Of a DNA stretch of 23,937 nucleotides, positions 1 to 8,514 are shown in pieces. The position numbers and the translations under genes are program-made. The stretch is from positions 1-23,937 of the IMG/VR virus record IMGVR_UViG_3300027861_000195. The stretch is one strand, 5' to 3'. Source of the DNA: a virus. The notes under the pieces were generated by a model. That model searched no databases, had not been told where the DNA came from, and saw only the letters and a list, made by a program, of their open reading frames with translations. Every line of letters begins with the position of its first letter. The stretch's first letter is position 1.

Positions 1-360
1 CTCATCCTCTCCTTCAATCTCAATCCATGAACCGTCCCGAACGAATGGGGCGATGGCTCTCAGAAGGTGCTCGTCGTCACCGAGCTTCTCTCCATCGAAG
101 TAGATGGAGGTAACGTCTCCACCTACAGCCCCCTGCAACTCCCACCTCCATGCAATCACGGCTTCCTCGAGCGTCGTTGCATTCTTGTATTCGTCGGTGT
201 TGATCCAGGAGAACCAACTCTCAGTCTTGCCGGTCTCTGGTTCAAACCTGCCGCCACGCCCACTGTCTGGGTCGAGCGCCTGGATTGCCTTGAGTGCAGT
301 TGCCTTGTCCTCCTTCTTCATAAAGAAGTCGCAGTTGCATTGGTACATGTGATAACCCAT
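1..360 (-). CDS. Phage protein of unknown function, 3' end cut by window
   Basis: Open frame of 120 codons from ATG at 360 running off the left edge; the C-terminus is missing. The start is fixed by GGAGG about 8 bases upstream, lying inside the last codons of the preceding gene, so the two are translationally coupled. The protein begins MGYHMYQCNCDFFMKKEDKA and later has YFDGEKLGDDEHLLRAIAPF and an acidic end. This matches my memory of a small family very common in tailed phages, often close to the MGYTHYW family, as here. Its function is unknown. No transmembrane segment or catalytic motif is visible. The gene call is secure; the role is not. Confidence 0.85.
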   Translation of the reverse strand, partial: MGYHMYQCNCDFFMKKEDKATALKAIQALDPDSGRGGRFEPETGKTESWFSWINTDEYKNATTLEEAVIAWRWELQGAVGGDVTSIYFDGEKLGDDEHLLRAIAPFVRDGSWIEIEGEDE

Positions 361-363
361 CGC

Positions 364-786
364 CTAGTCCTCCAATGCGAACGCTAGGTCTTCGCCTAGC
401 GCCTTTGTTGCGAGCTCTCGCCCAGTCCAATCCGAGAAGTACCCGTCCGAACTGATGTAGTACGGGTCCTTCAGCGCGCCGGCCTTGGTCAGGTGGTGTC
501 CCACAATGCACAGCACTGCAGTGACAGCCTCGTCGTATGGCTTGCGAGCTGTCTTGCAGAAGTTGAACCCGCGCAGACCGTCTCGCTCAAGAAAGAACGT
601 CTCGTGACCAGCGGACCCCTGCCCATTGAATCGGATGTAGTCCGAATCAACTAGGGGAGGGTCCGGATTGTCGTACTCAAATTGCAGGTTTGTAACCTCA
701 GCGACGACCTCCTTAGACGCAGCCTGAATCTTGGCCCATGTCTCCTTGCCTATTTCTGGCAGTTCCCAATAGTGTGTGTATCCCAT
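364..786 (-). CDS. MGYTHYW-family phage protein, unknown function
   Basis: 140 residues from ATG at 786, with AAGGAG 8 bases upstream. It begins MGYTHYWELPEIGKETW and contains HETFFLERDG, FNFCKTARKPYDEAV and YYISSDG. This is the recognisable signature of a widespread phage family that includes a conserved FCKT-RKPYD block. The biochemical role is not known to me. Its stop codon lies 3 bases before the next start, and its final codons carry that gene's ribosome-binding site, so it is a link in the leftward operon. Confidence 0.9.
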   Translation of the reverse strand: MGYTHYWELPEIGKETWAKIQAASKEVVAEVTNLQFEYDNPDPPLVDSDYIRFNGQGSAGHETFFLERDGLRGFNFCKTARKPYDEAVTAVLCIVGHHLTKAGALKDPYYISSDGYFSDWTGRELATKALGEDLAFALED

Positions 787-807
787 CGTCTCTCTCCTTC
801 CTGGCCC

Positions 808-1113
808 TCAGGCCATTGATGCGCGGATGTGCGCTGTCTCGTCTCCGCCGCCACTACCAGCTTGGTAGCGCTCGTAGTTTCGGATCGGTGTGTACTCCTT
901 GTAGTGCTCCTCAACGGAGGGGCTTCGTCCGTACTTCGCCTTGTACGCCATGAAGAACTTCCCCGCATCGGAGTCCTCCTCAAGGTAGGCGAGGTGGTCT
1001 TTCATGTACGAGTAGGACGAGATGTCCCATTGGATTCTCAGCTCAGCAAGCAGGTGCTTGGGAACCTCGAGCCACCCATGTCCAGGGTCTGTGTAAAAGT
1101 TGAACGTAACCAT
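808..1113 (-). CDS. Conserved phage protein (FYTDPGHGWLEV family), unknown function
   Basis: 101 residues from ATG at 1113. AAGGAG sits 6 bases upstream inside the end of the preceding gene, and one base separates that gene's TGA from this ATG. The N-terminus FNFYTDPGHGWLEVPKHLL, followed by ISSYSYM and YLEEDSDAGKFF, matches a small phage/plasmid family known by its order of motifs but not by function. No signal peptide or membrane segment is seen. The middle, rich in Asp, Glu and aromatic residues, suggests a small globular cytoplasmic protein. Confidence 0.85.
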   Translation of the reverse strand: MVTFNFYTDPGHGWLEVPKHLLAELRIQWDISSYSYMKDHLAYLEEDSDAGKFFMAYKAKYGRSPSVEEHYKEYTPIRNYERYQAGSGGGDETAHIRASMA

Positions 1114-1114
1114 G

Positions 1115-1438
1115 TCAGTCTCCTTCTGTGACTAGGTGAATCAGGCTCAGACTTTGGAAGATTTCCGTTGGGGTGTCGCCCCAAGAGAGCCCTCCTGTGA
1201 ACAGGTATCTCTTTCCGTCGAGGTGGATGTCGGCCAACTCTCTGGACGGGGAGACAAAGACCTCATCAATGGCGCTTTTGAGCAGGTCGACGGGGTCCTC
1301 CTCTCTTTGGTCGAACCCAAAGGACTCAAGGATCCAGGCGCGGCTGTCCTCCGAAATCGACTCGGCTCGGCTCTTTAGGAGTCCTACGTCCACAACCTCG
1401 GGAACTCTTGCGAATGTGATCAGCATGTCGGCGCCCAT
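1115..1438 (-). CDS. Conserved phage protein with GGLSWGDTPT motif
   Basis: 107 residues from ATG at 1438. GGAGG 5 bases upstream is embedded in the last codons of the preceding gene, which stops 1 base earlier. The C-terminal half carries RYLFTGGLSWGDTPTEIFQS. I associate this GG-(M/L)-SWGD-PT block with a small, frequent phage family of unknown function, usually found beside the FYTDPGHGWLEV family, as it is here. The acidic N-terminal half is predicted helical. Function not assigned. Confidence 0.82.
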   Translation of the reverse strand: MGADMLITFARVPEVVDVGLLKSRAESISEDSRAWILESFGFDQREEDPVDLLKSAIDEVFVSPSRELADIHLDGKRYLFTGGLSWGDTPTEIFQSLSLIHLVTEGD

Positions 1439-1439
1439 G

Positions 1440-1703
1440 TCAGCCTCCGTTCACAGGGAAGGTAAGCTCTTTGCCGTCCGGTCCTTGACCGAACAGGGCC
1501 CCGCCGTCGTTACCCTCGTCGTCCTGCGATGGGAAGATCATGCTCCCGTCGTCCAGGTGGATGACGATTGGCCGGCTATACCAACCCATGTCCGCGCTCT
1601 CTTCCTCCGAAAGCCAGCGCACACCCTTGATCGTCCTTCCAACGAGGTGCTTCTTTCCGTAGTTGTTCCAGTGATCGACTTGCTCTTTCTTGTTCTTAAA
1701 CAT
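1440..1703 (-). CDS. Small conserved phage protein (WYSRPIVIHLDDG family)
   Basis: 87 residues. I start it at the ATG at 1703 rather than the GTG just upstream because GGAG then lies 6 bases away. The start is nested in the end of the upstream gene, whose TAA overlaps the second and third codons. Motifs are LVGRTIKGVRWLSEEE, GWYSRPIVIHLDDGSMIFPS and DDEGNDGGAL. The family is frequent in phages and in some bacterial genomes; a small beta-rich fold is likely, function unknown. Confidence 0.83.
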   Translation of the reverse strand: MFKNKKEQVDHWNNYGKKHLVGRTIKGVRWLSEEESADMGWYSRPIVIHLDDGSMIFPSQDDEGNDGGALFGQGPDGKELTFPVNGG

Positions 1704-1926
1704 CACTCTCTCCTTCCTTGATACGGAGCATCCCCGTATCGGTTAGCCCGTCGAAGCGAACCCGGATGTCTTCCATGTCCGGGTGCATCCTCTCGAGGTC
1801 GGACTTGTTGGTGTACGGACCACTCGGGGTCCGGAAGTCCTTGTTCATATCGAAGTCAGCCTGCGCCTCCTCCAACTCCTTGTAGTCCCGGCCATACGCC
1901 GGCATCAGTGGCACTAGTCCAAACAT
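1696..1926 (-). CDS. Small conserved phage protein (VPAYGRDYK-like)
   Basis: 76 residues from ATG at 1926, with the same leader as the next gene (AAGGAGAGAGTG then ATGTTT). The N-terminus MFGLVPLMPAYGRDYKELEE and the FDMNKDF segment resemble a small phage family (PAYGRDYK then a short helix) that I recognise but cannot assign a role. The 3' end overlaps the start of the following gene. Immediately upstream of its ribosome-binding site is a perfect 14-bp palindrome (1941-1954). Confidence 0.8.
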   Translation of the reverse strand: MFGLVPLMPAYGRDYKELEEAQADFDMNKDFRTPSGPYTNKSDLERMHPDMEDIRVRFDGLTDTGMLRIKEGESDV

Positions 1927-1940
1927 CACTCTCTCCTTCT

Positions 1941-1954
1941 GCCCAGTACTGGGC
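1941..1954. repeat. GCCCAGTACTGGGC palindrome next to a ribosome-binding site
   Basis: A perfect 14-bp palindrome directly 5' (minus strand) of the AGAAGGAGAGAG of the 1696-1926 gene. It is one of four related sites. Confidence 0.65.
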
Positions 1955-1956
1955 GG

Positions 1957-2550
1957 TTAGCTGACCCTCATTGGCATGATCAGCACCTGGAGCAGAATCT
2001 CTGAACCATTCAGAGTCCTGCCTTCGGTTATCAAGTGGACAGGGTCGAACTTAGAGGCGACCCTCCAGACGGACCTTTGGTATTCCTTTTCCGAACCCTT
2101 CCCTTTCACGCGAACATCTCGGATTGCAGTCATCACCCGGTGAACGAGTGCGATGTTGAGCCCAACATCCTCTTCGTCCTGAGCTGCCCTGCTTCCTGGA
2201 AACGGCGCTCGCACATCTGGGAACGCCGGCTCTGTCCACTCGAGGACATCAGCAGTCATCCCCTTTGTCTTAATCCATGTGGCTAGGGAGCTTGCCGAGA
2301 CAAAGGCTTCCCCAGACAGCCCCTCAACCGGCGGCAACTCCGCAACAATGGCGCAGTGACCGTCCGTCCCAATCAAGAACGACACCTCGTCGTGGTACTC
2401 AATCGCCGCGTTCTGCAGCGTCGGACTTGCGTTCTTGTGACCTGCAATCCTGTGAATCGCCTTGGCTGCAGGCAACCAGTCGGTTGGGAATATGTGGTCG
2501 TCGGCTAAGGCGCTAGGCCTCTTTGTCGTTAGATACTTTCCTTCTCCCAT
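1957..2550 (-). CDS. Sliding-clamp-like protein (DnaN-like C-terminus), short form
   Basis: 197 residues from ATG at 2550, where AGGAAGG lies upstream; longer in-frame starts run into the upstream gene. FPTDWLPAAKAIHRIAG (21-37), LIGTDGHCAIVAEL (59-72) and EAFVSASSLATWIKTKG resemble the repeated fold of bacterial beta clamps, where a strand ends in TDG. The protein closes with QVLIMPMRVS; the E. coli clamp ends VMPMRL, a striking match. Full bacterial clamps are about 366 residues, whereas trimeric viral clamps such as T4 gp45 are about 228. I infer a processivity-clamp-like factor for DNA replication. The assignment is inference from motifs; a clamp-fold protein with another role is possible. 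Confidence 0.6.
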   Translation of the reverse strand: MGEGKYLTTKRPSALADDHIFPTDWLPAAKAIHRIAGHKNASPTLQNAAIEYHDEVSFLIGTDGHCAIVAELPPVEGLSGEAFVSASSLATWIKTKGMTADVLEWTEPAFPDVRAPFPGSRAAQDEEDVGLNIALVHRVMTAIRDVRVKGKGSEKEYQRSVWRVASKFDPVHLITEGRTLNGSEILLQVLIMPMRVS

Positions 2551-2551
2551 T

Positions 2552-2692
2552 TCACTTTCCTTCCTCAATAAAGGGCTCAAGCTCTGCCCTGTAGTAAAAG
2601 ATGTGCTCCCAGCTACCGTCCTCATAGAAGACTGTGTAGTAGTGGGAGAACCCGTATATCGTTTCGCTTACGCTCACGATTTCTTTGCTCAT
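2552..2692 (-). CDS. 46-residue protein, unknown
   Basis: A short frame read by hand, from ATG at 2692 with GGAGG about 4 bases upstream. Its TGA at 2552-2554 lies one base before the clamp-like gene's start, and its last codons (EEGK) supply that gene's AGGAAGGA ribosome-binding site. The start overlaps the preceding stop as ATGA. The product, MSKEIVSVSETIYGFSHYYT onward, is aromatic-rich and acidic with a YEDGSWEHIFYY segment that could form a small beta-sheet. The tight packing argues it is translated. Function unknown. Confidence 0.68.
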   Translation of the reverse strand: MSKEIVSVSETIYGFSHYYTVFYEDGSWEHIFYYRAELEPFIEEGK

Positions 2693-2883
2693 GCTTCCTC
2701 CTTCTTGTGCTTAACGGAGAAGAGAGGCTTGTCAGCCTTCCACCCATCCTTCTCGACGAGTTCCGAGACCATCTCGACCGCCTCCGTATAGTTCCTAGCC
2801 ATCACTGTCATTTCGGGCACAGCTCCGAACGTGTACGTCCCGCCCTCCTTGCTGACCAGCATGGTGATTGTGTATGTATTCAT
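2689..2883 (-). CDS. Small hypothetical phage protein
   Basis: 64 residues. The best start is ATG at 2883, with AAGGAG 7 bases upstream; a longer in-frame extension would overlap the micro-ORF upstream. The product, MNTYTITMLVSKEGGTYTFG and then a helix with YTEAVEMVSELVEKDGW, looks like a compact beta-alpha protein with a lysine/glutamate-rich tail. Its TGA overlaps the next ATG (ATGA). I do not recognise a family with confidence. Confidence 0.75.
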   Translation of the reverse strand: MNTYTITMLVSKEGGTYTFGAVPEMTVMARNYTEAVEMVSELVEKDGWKADKPLFSVKHKKEEA

Positions 2884-2884
2884 C

Positions 2885-2941
2885 TCACTCTCCTTCGTCT
2901 GACTGTTCATTAATCGACACCTTGATTCCCTCTTCACTCAT
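2885..2941 (-). CDS. 18-codon micro-ORF spanning a palindromic site
   Basis: From ATG at 2941, GGAGAG 5 bases upstream, to TGA at 2885-2887; the product is MSEEGIKVSINEQSDEGE. It is spaced like the other operon genes: its last codons (DEGE) form the ribosome-binding site of the next gene. The middle codons are a copy of the 16-bp palindrome (2904-2919), altered at two positions. It may be a leader peptide or a decayed gene that keeps ribosomes moving through the site. Confidence 0.4.
   Translation of the reverse strand: MSEEGIKVSINEQSDEGE
2904..2919. promoter_or_regulatory. Diverged 16-bp palindrome in micro-ORF
   Basis: TGTTCATTAATCGACA differs from the consensus at two positions, so one half-site is intact. 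It lies upstream of the 2689-2883 gene and within the 18-codon frame. Confidence 0.45.
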
Positions 2942-2961
2942 CTCACTCTCCTTTCGGCCCC

Positions 2962-3531
2962 TTAGCGGGACACAAAGTCGTAGTCCTTCTCGTCGTCTCT
3001 CGTCTCGGCGTGAAAGCTATGGGGCGGTCCACAACAATCACAGCCGAGAGCGTCCGCGTTGCCTCTCGTGATCTGCTCCCATCTAGACACTCCCTCGCGA
3101 AGAGCCTCGCGCAGGCTATCCGCCTGGATTTCGATCTCCGCCCCGAAGGGAGAGCCGTCGCTATGGCGCCCACGCAAGACCCAGTCGGCCCTCTGAAGAG
3201 ACTCCCAGTCCTCGCTACTCATCCAATCTTCCCCGCCACTGTTGTTGTGGCTGTAGCTAACGCGAAAGAACTTCAGTGGCTCGGTTTCGCCTTTCGGAGG
3301 GAGTACGTGCTTGAGCATGAAGAAGCTCTTGGCTCCCGTGTTCATGCACCTCACTAGGCATTCGCTGAAGAGAGGGTGCGACCACGGGTCATATCCACGC
3401 TCGGCTAAGAGCATAAGTCCCTTAGTCGCCGCCTCCTTCGGGCTGTCGGCCTGGATCGTGAATGCCTGCGAGCAGTCACTCAGAATCCCTCTGTTGAAAT
3501 CAATAGCCTTCTCAAATCGGTAAGGACTCAC
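2962..3531 (-). CDS. Hypothetical protein with two QADS repeats and a Cys-rich tail
   Basis: 189 residues from a GTG at 3531 with GGAGAG upstream. The protein has two related segments: FTIQADSPKEAA near residue 24 and EIEIQADSLREAL near residue 135. Each is a strand followed by a helix, so it probably arose by internal duplication. The C-terminus carries GCDCCGPPHSF at about 162-172; this CxCCGPPH pattern recurs in phage proteins and may bind a metal ion. No known catalytic set is visible. Its ribosome-binding site lies directly beside the hairpin at 3547-3560. Confidence 0.78.
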   Translation of the reverse strand: MSPYRFEKAIDFNRGILSDCSQAFTIQADSPKEAATKGLMLLAERGYDPWSHPLFSECLVRCMNTGAKSFFMLKHVLPPKGETEPLKFFRVSYSHNNSGGEDWMSSEDWESLQRADWVLRGRHSDGSPFGAEIEIQADSLREALREGVSRWEQITRGNADALGCDCCGPPHSFHAETRDDEKDYDFVSR

Positions 3532-3532
3532 C

Positions 3533-3868
3533 TCACTCTCCTTTCTGCCCAGTGCTGGGCCTCGTTAACATTGAAGTCAGCACCCTTTGAAAAGTGTTGA
3601 CCGTTTTGATCTCCTCTTCGTCTGGCTCGTGCCAACTCGGCAAGTTGCAGTGGAGCCCCCTGTTCATGTGGATTACCTCCAGCGCATAAACGATGAAGTT
3701 CCACACCGTTTCCCAAGTCTCATTACTCAGCGTGATCGTTGTGTATCCACCGCTGTACTCAGCGGTCATCGAGTCAACGCTGCAGTCAACGCAGACATCC
3801 TCTTCCGGCGACACGTAGTACTCAGTGCCACAGTCCTTGCAGCGTTGAGCTTCAATCGAATCTCTCAT
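3533..3868 (-). CDS. Zinc-ribbon protein, unknown function
   Basis: 111 residues from ATG at 3868; GGAGG lies 7 bases upstream, which favours this ATG over the out-of-frame ATG beside it. Cys10, Cys13, Cys26 and Cys29 form a CX2C-X12-CX2C zinc ribbon. The rest is mostly helical with aromatic residues (ETWETVWNFIVYALEVIHMN). The C-terminus, RPSTGQKGE, is encoded by the hairpin that precedes the next gene's ribosome-binding site. The gene at 4136-4522 ends the same way (VPSTGQTGG), because both carry this element. Confidence 0.75.
   Translation of the reverse strand: MRDSIEAQRCKDCGTEYYVSPEEDVCVDCSVDSMTAEYSGGYTTITLSNETWETVWNFIVYALEVIHMNRGLHCNLPSWHEPDEEEIKTVNTFQRVLTSMLTRPSTGQKGE
3547..3560. repeat. 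GCCCAGTGCTGGGC hairpin next to a ribosome-binding site
   Basis: Second copy, in the 3' end of the zinc-ribbon gene and just 5' of the GGAGAG of the 2962-3531 gene. Six pairs and a two-base centre. Confidence 0.65.
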
Positions 3869-3871
3869 CTC

Positions 3872-4132
3872 TCATCCTCCTAGTTCCGCAGTTTGTTGTT
3901 GCTCGTCTACGGCTGCTTGTATCTCTTGTCGGTGCTCGCCGCGCCATCGGGTCGGGCTATGAGGGGCTCGGTCAACTGCGTACATCTGCTCCAGTCGCCG
4001 AACCCAGTCGCGTCCAACAATCCATCGGTTACTGGGGTCATCTCCCCCAACTCTAAAAATGTTGTGCACAAGTTCACGGGATCGTGCCCGTGCCCGCTGT
4101 CGTTGTGCTCGCCTAAAAGCCCTACCTCTCAT
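3872..4132 (-). CDS. Small Arg-rich hypothetical protein
   Basis: 86 residues from ATG at 4132, with the same GGAGGATGAGAG leader as the next gene. The first 20 residues hold many arginines (RRAQRQRARARSRE), so nucleic-acid binding is possible. WIVGRDWVRRLEQMYAVD follows, then a Gln-rich tail. Its last codons (LGG) create the next ribosome-binding site. No family recognised. A plus-strand frame covers the same bases but has no start signal. Confidence 0.62.
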   Translation of the reverse strand: MRGRAFRRAQRQRARARSRELVHNIFRVGGDDPSNRWIVGRDWVRRLEQMYAVDRAPHSPTRWRGEHRQEIQAAVDEQQQTAELGG

Positions 4133-4135
4133 CTC

Positions 4136-4522
4136 TCATCCTCCTGTCTGCCCAGTGCTGGGCACTCTCGAGTTAACGAAAGAACTTCTAATTGTTCGCA
4201 AGAGCGTTATTGCATCGGCAGCCCCTTCACCGTCTCCATCAACAGACTCGTACTCCAGTCTTCGCAAGAGGAAGTCGTAACAATCGTCGACGGTTCCTCG
4301 GTGGCGATCCTCGCTAAGCCCCAGAACGTTCAGCCTTATGTGCCAATGTCGCCACATTTGATAAGCCATGTCCTGTGAATCATCGAGCAGTTCAAAACGT
4401 CTATCGGGGTCTTGCTCAAGTCGAGCATTCTCTGCGTGTCGCATCGCCCTAGTTGCTAGGTCGATTAGAACCTCTAGTAGTCGTTGTTCTGGTGACATCT
4501 CTTCCTCGGTAGCCAATGTCAT
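4136..4522 (-). CDS. Helical hypothetical protein
   Basis: 128 residues. I choose ATG at 4522 because AAGGAGG lies 5 bases upstream; an in-frame extension to 4600 would run through a strong RNA hairpin (4559-4588) and has no signal. The protein is acidic and almost wholly helical: MSPEQRLLEVLIDLATRAMR, FELLDDSQDMAYQMWRHWH, then YDFLLRRLEYESVDGDGEG. No catalytic motif is seen. It ends VPSTGQTGG, encoded by the recurrent hairpin at 4150-4163. Confidence 0.74.
   Translation of the reverse strand: MTLATEEEMSPEQRLLEVLIDLATRAMRHAENARLEQDPDRRFELLDDSQDMAYQMWRHWHIRLNVLGLSEDRHRGTVDDCYDFLLRRLEYESVDGDGEGAADAITLLRTIRSSFVNSRVPSTGQTGG
4150..4163. repeat. GCCCAGTGCTGGGC hairpin next to a ribosome-binding site
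   Basis: Third copy, identical to the one at 3547, in the 3' end of the 4136-4522 gene and upstream of the CAGGAGG of the 3872-4132 gene. Confidence 0.65.
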
Positions 4523-4558
4523 GGCGACCTCCTTCCTGCATTCGGAATGAACACAAGT

Positions 4559-4588
4559 CAGCCCGTGAAGACCTCTCTCCACGGGCTG
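4559..4588 (-). promoter_or_regulatory. 12-bp mRNA hairpin between operon genes
   Basis: On the minus strand the arms CAGCCCGTGGAG and CTTCACGGGCTG pair over 12 bp around a 6-base loop, AGAGGT. One pair is G-U on this strand but would be C-A on the other, so it acts as minus-strand RNA. It sits after the gene at 4612-4938 and before the ribosome-binding site at 4526. No run of U follows, so I favour an mRNA-processing or attenuation element over a simple terminator. Confidence 0.5.
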
Positions 4589-4605
4589 TGTTCTGTCCAC
4601 TCAAC

Positions 4606-4621
4606 CGTTGATTAATCGACA
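4606..4621. promoter_or_regulatory. Diverged 16-bp palindrome at a gene end
   Basis: CGTTGATTAATCGACA, two positions from the consensus, overlapping the TAA of the 4612-4938 gene and preceding the 4136-4522 gene. It fits the pattern of one site per gene or gene group. Confidence 0.45.
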
Positions 4622-4938
4622 GTCACCACTTCCTCAGAATCGGGGAAGGCCCAGCCATTGGCTGAGAGCCTCTCGATCTCGTCCGTCTTGTTCGTATGAA
4701 CAAGCTGGATGGTGACCTGTCGCTGACGTAACACCGTCGATCCGTCCGGGCTTGTAACCCGAGTCGTCTCGATTCTCGTCGTCGTTTCGCTCCTCTTGAG
4801 GCGCGGCCTGGACGACGAGTGTCGCTTGCGTGAACCGCTCAACGACGACACGTCAGCAAGCGCCAACGCCTCGGACAGTTGCCCGCCCCACGCAAACCCG
4901 ACCTTGTTTTCAGGTCGATCTTCAAACCTATTTCCCAT
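4612..4938 (-). CDS. Hypothetical protein with basic, Ser/Arg-rich middle
   Basis: 108 residues from ATG at 4938, where GGAGAGAG lies 5 bases upstream (better than the ATG at 4959). After MGNRFEDRPENKVGFAWGGQ comes a Ser/Arg/Lys stretch (GSRKRHSSSRPRLKRSETTT), then beta-like RQVTIQLVHTNKTDEIERL and a tail ending VVTVD. The stop codon TAA is supplied by a copy of the 16-bp palindrome (4606-4621). Three further copies stand upstream of the start, suggesting this gene heads its own regulated unit. Function unknown. Confidence 0.72.
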   Translation of the reverse strand: MGNRFEDRPENKVGFAWGGQLSEALALADVSSLSGSRKRHSSSRPRLKRSETTTRIETTRVTSPDGSTVLRQRQVTIQLVHTNKTDEIERLSANGWAFPDSEEVVTVD

Positions 4939-4986
4939 GTCACTCTCTCCTCTCAACACCCTCGCTTCATTGCTCAGGTATGAATC

Positions 4987-5059
4987 TGTTGATTAATCGA
5001 CAGTTCAACGAATCAAACTGTCGATTAATCGACACATCCAAACTGTCGATTAATCGACA
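4987..5059. promoter_or_regulatory. Triple 16-bp palindrome array (operator-like)
   Basis: Copies at 4987-5002 (TGTTGATTAATCGACA), 5019-5034 and 5044-5059 (both exactly TGTCGATTAATCGACA). Centres are 32 and 25 bp apart. Symmetry at this length fits a dimeric DNA-binding repressor. A TTGAAC about 17 bp from ATTCAT brackets the first copy on the minus strand, a possible promoter overlapped by the site. No protein that would bind is evident in the window. Confidence 0.6.
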
Positions 5060-5073
5060 CTTGGTATCTCAAG

Positions 5074-5242
5074 ACGGACTACCCCCTTGGGGGGATCTCG
5101 AGTCCGTTTAGGGGGATTCCCCCTCAGCTTGGAGGTTCCCCTCCAGGCGGGCGGAGCTCCCCGCTCGCACGTAGTCTTGGGCGATGGTCCAGCTCGAAGC
5201 TGGGGCGCTCACCCCTCTCAAGTCGGCGCTCCGCTCACTTGA
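5074..5242 (-). ncRNA. Chain of seven hairpins, probable structured 3' UTR or RNA
   Basis: In minus-strand order the arms are: TCAAGT/ACTTGA (5218-5242), GGGG/CCCC (5202-5215), CCAGCT/AGCTGG (5189-5203), GCGG/CCGC (5151-5164), TGGAGG/CCTCCA with loop GGAA (5130-5145), AGGGG/CCCCT (5110-5124), and ACGGACT/AGTCCGT enclosing CCCCC/GGGGG (5074-5107). The GGAA loop is of GNRA type on the minus strand only. No U-tract follows, so ordinary intrinsic termination is not obvious. It follows the stop codon of the 5277-5561 gene. Confidence 0.5.
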
Positions 5243-5276
5243 ACCCATGAGCCTTACAGCCCACGGATTCGCGGTC

Positions 5277-5561
5277 TCACTTCCACTGATTGATCAACTC
5301 TCGGACGAACACCGGGAGCGGGGACGCCTTGCGCGCACCACTCCAGCGAACAAGCATGTCCGCTACGGTTGCCGATAGTTCGAACGACGCCTCGCGGGAG
5401 TCTGCGTCCACGACCTGAGCAACGGCGTTAATCGCGCCCAGTCGATAGCCTCGCCCACTGGCGGCGGAGGACACCTCTTGACAGATGGTCAACAGTTGAT
5501 CCTCGGTTGCCGATGGCTCGAACGCGGCCCCGTCCACTGTGATCACGTTTCCTAGTCTCAT
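5277..5561 (-). CDS. Hypothetical protein between inverted repeats
   Basis: 94 residues from ATG at 5561 with AAGGAAG 7 bases upstream. MRLGNVITVDGAAFEPSATE is followed by alternating helices (DQLLTICQEVSSAASGRG, ASFELSATVADMLVRWSGA) and ends FVRELINQWK. It reads like a small soluble alpha-beta protein; I recognise no family. A hairpin with arms CTGCCA/TGGCAG lies just upstream of its ribosome-binding site, and the gene is bracketed by the 16-bp inverted repeat. Confidence 0.7.
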   Translation of the reverse strand: MRLGNVITVDGAAFEPSATEDQLLTICQEVSSAASGRGYRLGAINAVAQVVDADSREASFELSATVADMLVRWSGARKASPLPVFVRELINQWK

Positions 5562-5574
5562 CTCACTTCCTTCT

Positions 5575-5588
5575 CTGCCAGTTGGCAG
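5575..5588. repeat. CTGCCAGTTGGCAG hairpin next to a ribosome-binding site
   Basis: Diverged fourth member, 14 bases from the start of the 5277-5561 gene. The same spacing with different bases suggests that the fold is kept rather than the exact sequence. Confidence 0.5.
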
Positions 5589-5673
5589 CGCATGGGTTCA
5601 AGTGAGAAGAGCACCTATTTTCCAATCCTCATCTCCATCCGTTGCACTAAAAGCATCGGGTTCATTCCTTCCT

Positions 5674-5703
5674 GGCGGACTGTCGATTAATCGACAGTCC
5701 GCC
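5674..5703. promoter_or_regulatory. 30-bp perfect palindrome containing the 16-bp operator-like site
   Basis: The arm GGCGGACTGTCGATT is followed directly by its exact reverse complement. The inner 16 bases are the recurrent site TGTCGATTAATCGACA; the extra 7 bp on each side extend the symmetry. It lies just past the stop of the 5716-6600 gene, so in RNA it would be a very stable hairpin as well as a DNA-binding site. Confidence 0.65.
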
Positions 5704-5715
5704 CCTAATTACAGA

Positions 5716-6600
5716 CTAAGCGACCTTGGCGGTTGCAGTCTCGACCTTAGCCTCGGCGCGCACAGTGGCGGCCTTGACCTTGGCAGTGACGTACTTGCTG
5801 AGCACCAGACCGCGCTGGTAAGCCTTCAGCTCGCTCAGAGCGTCCTTGTCAACCTGCTCCTTGAACATGGGAGCAAGGATCTTGGCGTGGGATGCTGCCA
5901 TCCACATACCGTTCACCTTGACCAAGCCCTTGGCCTTGTACTCAACAACGAGTGCCTCGTTCGCGAGACGCTTGGCCTCACGCTCAGCTGCGGCCTTGGT
6001 ATCGGCGGTGTTGACATCGAAAGCAGGAAGTTCGTTCCCGTCCTTATCGACTTCAGTGCAACCGTGATAGCTAGACTTGATAGCCTCGATGATGACCTTG
6101 TTCTTCGCGTCGACCTTGCCGATGTTCGCGAATCGAAGGTTGTCACGTTGACTACCCTTAGCCAGTCCGCGAGCCTCATCAGCACTCGCGAACCGAAGAC
6201 CGTTGTCGGTCAACAGAGGCGAGATACCCTTGCCACCCTTGGGCATGTTGCCCTTGGCGAGAGATCCGAGAGCCTTGATAGCTTCCTCGTCGCCCGATTC
6301 AAGTATGCCGAGCACAATGCCGGCAGCCTGAATCAAAGCGTCGATCTCGGTCACGTTGTACTGCCGAAGCACCTGCGATGCGACGATAATCACGCCACGT
6401 CGACCAGAGGCTCCGCGACCCTCCCATTCCGAAGCGCCGGTAGTACCTCGGGCATGCACGATAACCGGAGTCAAGGTGTGCCGTCGGTTGCGACCGTTCG
6501 CTACAAGAATGTCAGCGTCAACGCCGTGGTTATCAGCGACCGTTTGAAGGCCATCGACAACCTGAGCAGTAGTCTCAATCTCAATTTTCTTAGCAGCCAT
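5716..6600 (-). CDS. Lys/Ala-rich protein, first gene of leftward operon, unknown
   Basis: 294 residues from ATG at 6600 with GGAGAGAG 5 bases upstream. MAAKKIEIETTAQVVDGLQT opens it. A central part reads GVIIVASQVLRQYNVTEIDA, and a lysine/alanine-rich helical tail (KYVTAKVKAATVRAEAKVE) closes it. No catalytic motif is visible and I do not recognise a family. Codons look more uniform than its neighbours' (many AAG, GCC, ACC), which suggests high expression. It lies just downstream of the putative large RNA and of a 16-bp palindrome at 6619-6634, so it could be co-transcribed with the RNA. It may be an abundant early or DNA/RNA-associated protein, but that is inference. Confidence 0.8.
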   Translation of the reverse strand: MAAKKIEIETTAQVVDGLQTVADNHGVDADILVANGRNRRHTLTPVIVHARGTTGASEWEGRGASGRRGVIIVASQVLRQYNVTEIDALIQAAGIVLGILESGDEEAIKALGSLAKGNMPKGGKGISPLLTDNGLRFASADEARGLAKGSQRDNLRFANIGKVDAKNKVIIEAIKSSYHGCTEVDKDGNELPAFDVNTADTKAAAEREAKRLANEALVVEYKAKGLVKVNGMWMAASHAKILAPMFKEQVDKDALSELKAYQRGLVLSKYVTAKVKAATVRAEAKVETATAKVA

Positions 6601-6618
6601 TTTTACTCTCTCCAATAG

Positions 6619-6634
6619 TGTCGATTAATCGACA
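6619..6634. promoter_or_regulatory. 16-bp palindrome upstream of the 5716-6600 gene
   Basis: An exact TGTCGATTAATCGACA, 11 bases from the gene's ribosome-binding site and between that gene and the structured RNA. Its position would allow a bound protein to block transcription into the operon. In RNA it folds to an 8-bp hairpin just before the ribosome-binding site. Confidence 0.6.
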
Positions 6635-6639
6635 GTTAG

Positions 6640-7330
6640 CCCGCTCCACAACGGAACGGGCAGAAATCCAATACACTTAGTGCAAAGGATGGAGACTGTT
6701 ACCGACTGACAGCCTCGAAAGACTGCCAGCCGATAACAGGTAAAAGACTGGAAAAATTGCTTGTTACTTCCGAGGGGATAATCAGTCCGCTCGCATTGCC
6801 TCGCGTGGCAATTACCGCCGATAGGACTAATGCCCTATCACGCCACACTGATTGTAAGGTCAGTAACCCGGCTTTCCGGTTTCATGGCTGCTAGCAGTCC
6901 CCGTACTTACTACGTTACATGGTAACGGGGACTCGATATTGTAGGCTCTCGCCCAGTAGATCCGACTGCTTTTGCGCTTACAAGGTCACCTTTTCCAGTG
7001 ACAAGGGCCCGAAATCGACTACTGTCGCCCGAAAGGGTGACCGGACTAGCGTCCTATTCGTCTTATGATTCCAGACTCGGTAGCGATTTCCCGTAGGTTT
7101 TCTACCGCTGATTTGTCTTGTCTGCCGAGATTGAATGAGCGCGTTTACCGCTATGTTTCGAGTCGCTCCCCGGGCTAGCCCTGATGGACTCCCTTGAATA
7201 GCCGAGCGACTAACGTGTCAGCACGATAAGTGTCTGCACTGCATTCCGGTTAGTAGTTGCTACTAACAGTCTTCACTATTTTGCATTGTCAAAGAACACT
7301 GCGTCCTAATGTCGACCCCGCTAGGGATGT
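6640..7330 (-). ncRNA. Putative giant structured RNA (GOLLD/ROOL-like class), about 690 nt
   Basis: No frame here has a ribosome-binding site, yet hairpins are dense. On the minus strand, 5' to 3' (window coordinates): 7249-7267 (GTTAGTAG/CTACTAAC), 7161-7211 (AGTCGCTC/GAGCGACT with inner GGCTA/TAGCC), 7076-7129 (CTCGG/CCGAG enclosing AGCG-GTAG/CTAC-CGCT), 6985-7002, 6942-6955 (GNRA loop GAGA), 6896-6933 (AGTCCCCG/CGGGGACT), 6847-6864, 6820-6839, 6795-6812, 6696-6739 and 6640-6660. Several pairs are G-U only on this strand. Size, phage context and the multi-hairpin plan resemble GOLLD and ROOL, large phage-encoded RNAs. I cannot confirm membership; it may be a new class. The boundaries are estimates. 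Confidence 0.65.
6696..6739 (-). ncRNA. 19-bp hairpin of the putative large RNA
   Basis: On the minus strand the arm CTGTTATCGGCTGGCAGTC pairs with GGCTGTCAGTCGGTAACAG without a break around the loop TTTCGA. Four of the 19 pairs are G-U wobbles there; on the plus strand the same positions would be C-A mismatches. This is the clearest evidence that the RNA is read leftward. Confidence 0.75.
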
Positions 7331-7343
7331 CTATTAATCAACA
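7328..7343. promoter_or_regulatory. Diverged 16-bp palindrome at the 5' side of the RNA
   Basis: TGTCTATTAATCAACA differs from TGTCGATTAATCGACA at two positions. With the copy at 6619-6634 it brackets the structured RNA, which suggests the same regulator could act at both sides. Confidence 0.4.
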
Positions 7344-7860
7344 GGCACACAGAGAGAATACACGCATCTATCCCTGTAGGTGAACAGGGATAGCAGGTAG
7401 TTTCTAGACGTTAGACTGCTCTGCATTTCTGATTTGATTATAAACGCGGACAGCAATCCAGAGCAGTACAGCGATTTCGCCAGGAGCTGCAGCCCAGTGG
7501 GCCTTTTGGGTATGGGGTGATTTACCTTTATATCGATTTCCCTGTAAGGGAATTGTAGAGCAGTCATGCATTCAGCTTAGTGGATGGGGTACTGCTCGGC
7601 CTGGACAGCGTAGTCTAGCGTTTAGCCTAGCCTGCTATAGGCTATGGTCCCCAATAGTTATAGGTAAGTGATTGTTTTCATAGGGGTATTTGGCTTTTGC
7701 CCCCTTGTTAACTTCAGAGGACAAAAGTTTTAAGGCAATGCGGGCGTCAGGCGTAGCGCATGCGCGTATCAGGGCTAGACCTAACCCTGACCCCCCCGGT
7801 GACCTCAACTCGTACATATATTAACCATACATTTGAACATGCTGAGTATGGCGAGCTGGT
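7344..7860. other. Gene-free, hairpin-rich region
   Basis: No supported gene: two minus frames of 60-77 codons lack ribosome-binding sites. Strong hairpins are CTATCCCTGT/ACAGGGATAG (7368-7393), ACTGCTCTG/CAGAGCAGT (7415-7467), TTCCCT/AGGGAA (7538-7552), GAGCAGT/ACTGCTC (7558-7597), TAGCCT/AGGCTA (about 7624-7645) and TCAGGG/CCCTGA (7769-7790). The ACTGCTC/GAGCAGT arms occur twice and could exchange partners. This may be a further domain of the large RNA, a second RNA, or origin DNA. Strand unresolved. Confidence 0.5.
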
Positions 7861-7861
7861 A

Positions 7862-7963
7862 GGGGGGGTACCTTTTTAGCGGTACCGGGGGTACTTATAC
7901 CTGGAGGGGGGGGGTACTTGACGGCGGTACCTTGGGCAGGTAAGTCTTTGGGGGGTAGGGGGG
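7862..7963 (+). repeat. G-run array with GGGGGTAC-YTT repeats
   Basis: Runs of 5 to 9 G at 7862-7868, 7887-7891, 7906-7914, 7950-7955 and 7958-7963. Repeats of the form GG(G/C)GGTAC(C)TT start at 7864, 7887, 7910 and 7923; the first three are exactly 23 bp apart. The run could form G-quadruplexes on the plus strand or serve as protein-binding iterons at an origin. Confidence 0.55.
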
Positions 7964-8055: not shown

Positions 8056-8514
8056 ATGGCGATACATTCTCTGCGGGTTTTAAAAACCAAAAAAAGAAGA
8101 ACTTGTACTTCTTGTGGTGAGAGCATCAAGGCTGGTGTTTCTTACTTTGCTCGTAACAGTTCTTTATCTGACGAGCGCGGGAATCCTGTGTATGGGTTCT
8201 TCTCTACTCACTTGGATTGTGAATGGTTAGTGGGTGAGCTCAGTGTTGGTCTTGGGAGTACTGAGGCTGGGATGAGCTTCCCTGGTTGGTTACCGTCCAG
8301 GTTGTCTGGGATGAAGGAGGTTGAGTTAGAGGGGTTAGATGGTTGGGGGAAGTTGAGTGAAGAGTCTCGGAAGCGTTTTACGGCTTTAAGGAGGCGGAGG
8401 AAGGTTCATGTAGAGCCGAGGCTTGAGTATCGGTACTACGACCCGTACACGAAGGAGAGGACGGGGTTTACGTCGACCCTCACGGGTATGCGTGAAGTGG
8501 TAGGGAACGTGTGA
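8056..8514 (+). CDS. Putative treble-clef zinc-finger protein
   Basis: 152 residues. I choose ATG at 8056, preceded by AAGGGGG; an upstream extension to 7918 would translate the repeat array. Cys17, Cys20, His52 and Cys55 (CTSCGESIKAG, then THLDC) form a CX2C...HX2C set, as in PARP/LIM-like fingers of small phage proteins, so nucleic-acid binding is plausible. The C-terminal part is Arg/Lys-rich (RFTALRRRRKVHVEPRLEYR) and then aromatic. It is the first rightward gene, next to the repeat region, and may be a regulator or accessory replication factor. Codon use is more T-rich than that of the following genes. Confidence 0.72.
   Translation: MAIHSLRVLKTKKRRTCTSCGESIKAGVSYFARNSSLSDERGNPVYGFFSTHLDCEWLVGELSVGLGSTEAGMSFPGWLPSRLSGMKEVELEGLDGWGKLSEESRKRFTALRRRRKVHVEPRLEYRYYDPYTKERTGFTSTLTGMREVVGNV

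Follow-up and report, generated by a model that had tools for sequence, protein, structure and literature searches.

The minus strand of positions 7345 to 6639 very probably specifies a genuine structured RNA of about 707 nt that lies outside the described families. We read it as belonging to a hitherto undescribed family of large, structured RNAs that uncultured marine phages carry and Rfam lacks. The block is noncoding, its fold is conserved with compensatory changes and a preference for the minus strand, and a module of three hairpins at its 3′ end is common to two pairs of phages. Noncoding, long and with a fold supported by covariation in four sequences, it belongs to the broad kind of large structured phage ncRNA. 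An earlier note on this DNA had proposed that a large structured RNA is read from the minus strand in front of the leftward operon, and the covariation in the two phage pairs supports that proposal well.

The window, by which we mean the whole 23.9-kb stretch analysed (an IMG/VR virus record), carries leftward genes at 1–6615, few of them nameable, and a rightward structural operon that starts at 8059 and encodes terminase, portal and major head protein. An ORF scan revealed no convincing gene between 6600 and 8060, and no ORF of 50 or more amino acids inside 6640–7330. IMG/VR yielded a single close relative, L006, which was located via the protein encoded downstream of the block and is 81.6% identical to the window over the block. 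Indels in this alignment measure 1, 1, 1, 1, 2, 4, 9 and 30 nt, mostly non-triplet, and the substitutions show no three-base periodicity (33/45/44); the block is therefore regarded as noncoding. This confirmed that the roughly 690 bases hold no credible gene, and the conserved protein-coding signal that the earlier note had named as evidence against an RNA is absent from the window/L006 alignment. An overlapping ORF at 7334–7567 (77 aa) was rejected as a gene on account of single-base indels relative to L006. Neither the window nor L006 contains a tRNA, as the earlier note had remarked for the vicinity of the block; three distant relatives have a tRNA-Asn on the rightward side of the divergent region (L044:1522–1597, L025:1020–1095 and L021:797–872). 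On the same side of the window, positions 7784–7960 hold a block ATTTGAACATGCTGAGTATGG..GGTACC with G runs, diverged copies of which precede the rightward operon in several relatives, and several contigs terminate close to it. Within the rightward operon, 9599–9837 matches two places in several relatives (e.g., L008, L012 and L034), which suggests a duplicated module.

Folding energy alone is weak evidence for a structured RNA here. The minus-strand block folds at −264 kcal/mol with a z-score of −4.2 (−5.2 in a repeat run), and the plus strand (−5.3) and coding stretches (as low as −3.3 and −3.8) score similarly. The decisive evidence is compensatory change. RNAalifold consensus folds of the window/L006 alignment were compared with 60 shuffles that left conserved, variable and gapped columns where they were. 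The minus strand contained 22 compensatory pairs, against 5.6 ± 2.2 in the shuffles (maximum 10 among the 60), and the plus strand contained 17; the alifold energy z-score was −8.4 for the minus strand versus −4.0 for the plus strand. Three coding alignments of 71–93% identity, treated in the same way, gave energy z-scores between −2.3 and +1.4 and showed no surplus of compensatory pairs. Two further phages, L022 and L044, were identified via synteny and have a noncoding block at the same place, with a mutual identity of 56%. The alifold energy z-score of this pair was −9.6 for the minus strand versus −3.8 for the plus strand, and 8 compensatory pairs fall in a long-range helix of 19 bp. Covariation in homologues, which had been suggested as a check, is thus present in two phage pairs by RNAalifold with shuffles; with four sequences, two per group, the sampling is small and the support stands below R-scape-grade significance.

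The minus-strand consensus fold, obtained with L006, contains at least 14 local hairpins, bearing out the earlier impression of at least eleven strong ones. Its 5′ domain (7133–7246) consists of the stacked helices 7246–7236/7142–7133, 7229–7219/7155–7145 and 7215–7207/7165–7159, with 8 compensatory pairs over the three; the tip of this domain lacks 30 nt in L006. It is followed at 7078–7107 by a hairpin CGGUAG..CUACCG with an inner UACG loop of the UNCG type (2 compensatory pairs, pair probability 0.99). The GNRA loop seen earlier is real: the hairpin at 6943–6954 (1 compensatory pair) has a GAGA loop at 6950–6947 that is GAAA in L006, so the GNRA type is kept. An 11-bp hairpin at 6896–6933 displays a large invariant loop, CCAUGUAACGUAGUAAG (3 compensatory pairs, pair probability 0.98), and a 12-bp hairpin at 6814–6844 has 2 compensatory and 2 one-sided changes. 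The 3′ module comprises three hairpins. Hairpin 1 (6696–6739) has 19 bp and a UUCG loop, starts with CUGU, contains 3 compensatory and 3 one-sided (G-U) changes and is also found in L044 and L022. Hairpin 2 (6666–6690, AUCC..UGCAC UAA GUGUA..GGAU), taken from the helix table, is spanned by the L044 match described below, and hairpin 3 (6639–6661) begins with YUGCCCG in the window, L006, L022 and L044. We rejected hairpin 3 as an intrinsic terminator, as no U-run follows it and a terminator scan found none there.

To place the distant pair, we drew on relatives gathered from IMG/VR (at least 30 loci by terminase and at least 11 by the first rightward gene, 8059–8514) and on a covariance model, R1, built from the 3′ 180 nt of the window and L006; the E-values come from shortly calibrated models. 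R1 matched L044 at 161–248 on the minus strand (16.2 bits, E 7.6e-4 in 177 kb), and the match covers hairpin 1 (CUGU..UUCG..CAG), hairpin 2 and hairpin 3 (YUGCCCG) in that order. When L022 was searched alone with filters off, hairpin 1 scored 12.5 bits at the corresponding place. A looser two-word pattern had retrieved 59 stretches, namely two known records (those of L006 and L044) and 57 unrelated viral loci with the words CAGTCTC and TGCCCGTTC at similar spacing, which served as decoys. In a second R1 search of 534 kb including these decoys, L044 was the sole match, and none of the 57 decoy loci matched at E ≤ 10. A central-domain model reached 7.6 bits in L044 and had no significant match in other phages, and a whole-length MAFFT alignment of the four RNAs was unreliable beyond the 3′ module. 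We conclude from these comparisons that the 3′ module is homologous across the window, L006, L022 and L044; outside it, position makes it likely that the two pairs are homologous as well. We thus count at least four phages as carriers of a single RNA family that evolves rapidly, with between-pair homology established for the 3′ module. Exact words of the RNA occurred in IMG/VR in the L006 record only, and blastn against annotated phages and plasmids returned no relative. A 24-nt plasmid match, intergenic in Rhizobium, was dismissed as chance, and three GTDB genome stretches sharing a conserved 20-mer were rejected, none being confirmed by the covariance model.

Palindromes lie at both ends of the RNA. 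A perfect 16-bp palindrome, TGTCGATTAATCGACA, probably a DNA operator, stands at 6619–6634 between the RNA and the downstream gene, and an imperfect copy, TGTCTATTAATCAACA, lies at the 5′ end (7328–7343). The earlier description of flanking palindrome copies therefore holds for the 3′ side, whereas the 5′ copy matches at 14 of 16 bases and is itself not a perfect palindrome. Further copies are spread through the leftward region (perfect at 5019, 5044, 5681 and 6619; imperfect at 2902, 4606, 4987 and 7328), including several leader regions of leftward genes. The corresponding palindromes of L018 (TGACCACATGTGGTCA) and L022 (GCCACCTAGGTGGC) differ, and one GCCACCTAGGTGGC copy lies near the 5′ end of the L022 block. 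Collectively, the palindromes look like a lineage-specific set of DNA operators resembling stoperators. A second palindrome, GCCCAGTRCTGGGC, occurs between leftward genes at 1941–1954, 3547–3560 and 4150–4163.

Upstream of the RNA, a strongly conserved block at 7346–7660 contains inverted copies of AGAGCAGT and has a stable fold on both strands, with no compensatory excess. Its conservation is close in L006, and in L012 where overlapping. A conserved TATAAT lies at 7442–7437 on the minus strand, and a sigma-70 scan of the block found no promoter. Sequence features suggest that 7346–7660 is probably a control region, and it may be transcribed too. Downstream, the first leftward gene (5716–6600, minus strand) encodes a 294-aa protein that is 92–93% identical in L006, has no Pfam or PHROGs match and yields an uninformative AlphaFold model (pLDDT 38). 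Inverted repeats flank this gene (5632–5696 and 6619–6695) as well as 5277–5561 (5220–5252 and 5588–5620); the copy at 5632–5679 on the plus strand mirrors the RNA's final two hairpins and scores 9 bits with R1.

As to its mode of action, we favour a free-standing, trans-acting RNA, to which we give about an even chance. Leftward transcription would start from a promoter in 7660–7330, under the control of a palindrome-binding regulator that seems to govern the leftward units, and expression would be early. The RNA would be released from the early transcript as a stable species, by transcription end or by processing near the 3′ module. Its function, as a scaffold or assembly, would lie in the tertiary fold and not in any encoded protein. 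Three features speak for a free or processed RNA: it persists where the adjoining gene changes, it is bracketed by palindromes, and its length far exceeds that of ordinary leaders. Between the window and L022, homology is seen in the 3′ module, whereas none is detectable in the downstream genes; this argues against a leader bound to one gene. The bracketing palindrome copies are also in keeping with an element that is regulated on its own.

The main rival, less probable and still a serious contender, is a cis-acting structured 5′ leader, in which the nascent RNA would affect either the RNA polymerase transcribing it, by processive antitermination of the HK022 put type, or else the processing or translation of what lies downstream. 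The RNA has the same orientation as the first leftward gene and ends 40 nt before it, and the terminator scan found no intrinsic terminator between them; the missing terminator and the short gap suit such a leader and speak against a free RNA. In four of four phages, moreover, the RNA stands at the head of the operon. Three other relatives, L013, L018 and L049, have no detectable structured RNA, and small arginine-rich protein genes occupy the same spot at the head of their leftward operons (L013:16–351, L018:3068–3379 and L049:11103–11444, all on the minus strand). This arrangement recalls, by analogy, how lambda relies on its N protein where HK022 uses put, a system made of RNA only (PMC9378689, PMC6256539). 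The three proteins are homologous (E 1e-9 and 1e-6, two clear pairs), and a profile built from them found nothing significant in the window, L006, L022 or L044, the last being a short contig. Like the block, put is a structured RNA made early in the leader of phage operons, and the relatives' arginine-rich protein might offer a functional parallel to it. However, put is a short element, far smaller than the block, and about 700 nt would be very large for such a role. Also against a cis-acting leader, the operator palindrome stands between RNA and gene, the arginine-rich proteins match no known antiterminator or other family, and L013, L018 and L049 still have long noncoding leaders. A related idea, which we regard as unlikely, is an exchange of RNA for protein: the operon head would hold either an N-like arginine-rich protein gene (L013, L018 and L049) or the giant RNA (window, L006, L022 and L044), and the RNA may replace the basic protein, for example in modifying RNA polymerase or organising an RNP.

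It is improbable that the block is instead an element working at the level of DNA (a replication origin or an operator array, for example), with hairpins that count in the DNA itself. The location between divergent operons would suit such an element, as would the conserved neighbour 7346–7660, whose inverted repeats fold equally on both strands without covariation. In 7345–6639 and in L022/L044, however, the minus strand is clearly the better one by consensus energy, and the hairpin at 6739–6696 swaps G-U with Watson-Crick pairs, a change tolerated only by a minus-strand RNA.

A very diverged GOLLD or ROOL RNA is less probable again. Phage origin, size and number of hairpins would be compatible with it, as would the tRNA-Asn genes nearby in three distant relatives. 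Like the block, GOLLD is a large, highly structured phage RNA with members known from marine metagenomes, and its conserved 3′ and less conserved 5′ regions (PMC12286853) seem to have a counterpart in the block. Many GOLLD members exceed 800 nt (PMC12286853), against about 707 nt here, and they often, though not obligatorily, lie near tRNA islands, of which there is none by the block. ROOL, whose function is unknown, is likewise a large RNA of phages and prophages with an elaborate secondary structure; the block differs in having no covariance-model match and, in the window and L006, no tRNA neighbour. Both GOLLD and ROOL have been reported to assemble into homo-oligomeric RNA nanocages. GOLLD (RF02032) had no match at E ≤ 10 in 11 records including the window, and none at the gathering cut-off in the general Rfam scans. 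ROOL (RF03087) was equally without a match at E ≤ 10 in the 11 records, where the control genomes were silent too, and in cmscan at E ≤ 5. Across the window and the eight relatives scanned, the only Rfam 15 matches above gathering were to tRNA, and a permissive cmscan (E ≤ 5) of the RNA region in the window, L006, L022 and L044 yielded sub-threshold chance matches only. The suggested Infernal check with GOLLD, ROOL and other large-RNA models thus gave no credible match, and of the earlier suggestion, "GOLLD/ROOL-like or new class", the first part is not supported and the second fits. Structure arising from composition, with no functional RNA, is strongly disfavoured as the least probable reading: folding energy alone is ordinary relative to coding controls, but compensatory substitutions are far above both matched shuffles and coding controls.

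To our knowledge, only a small number of large structured phage RNAs have been described, and no function has yet been assigned to GOLLD or ROOL. An additional, unrelated family, whose letters evolve fast while its fold and its place at the start of an early operon are kept, would enlarge this set and connect large phage RNA with a particular gene neighbourhood and regulator. Should more genomes show the same alternation with an arginine-rich protein gene, this would be a first handle on function.
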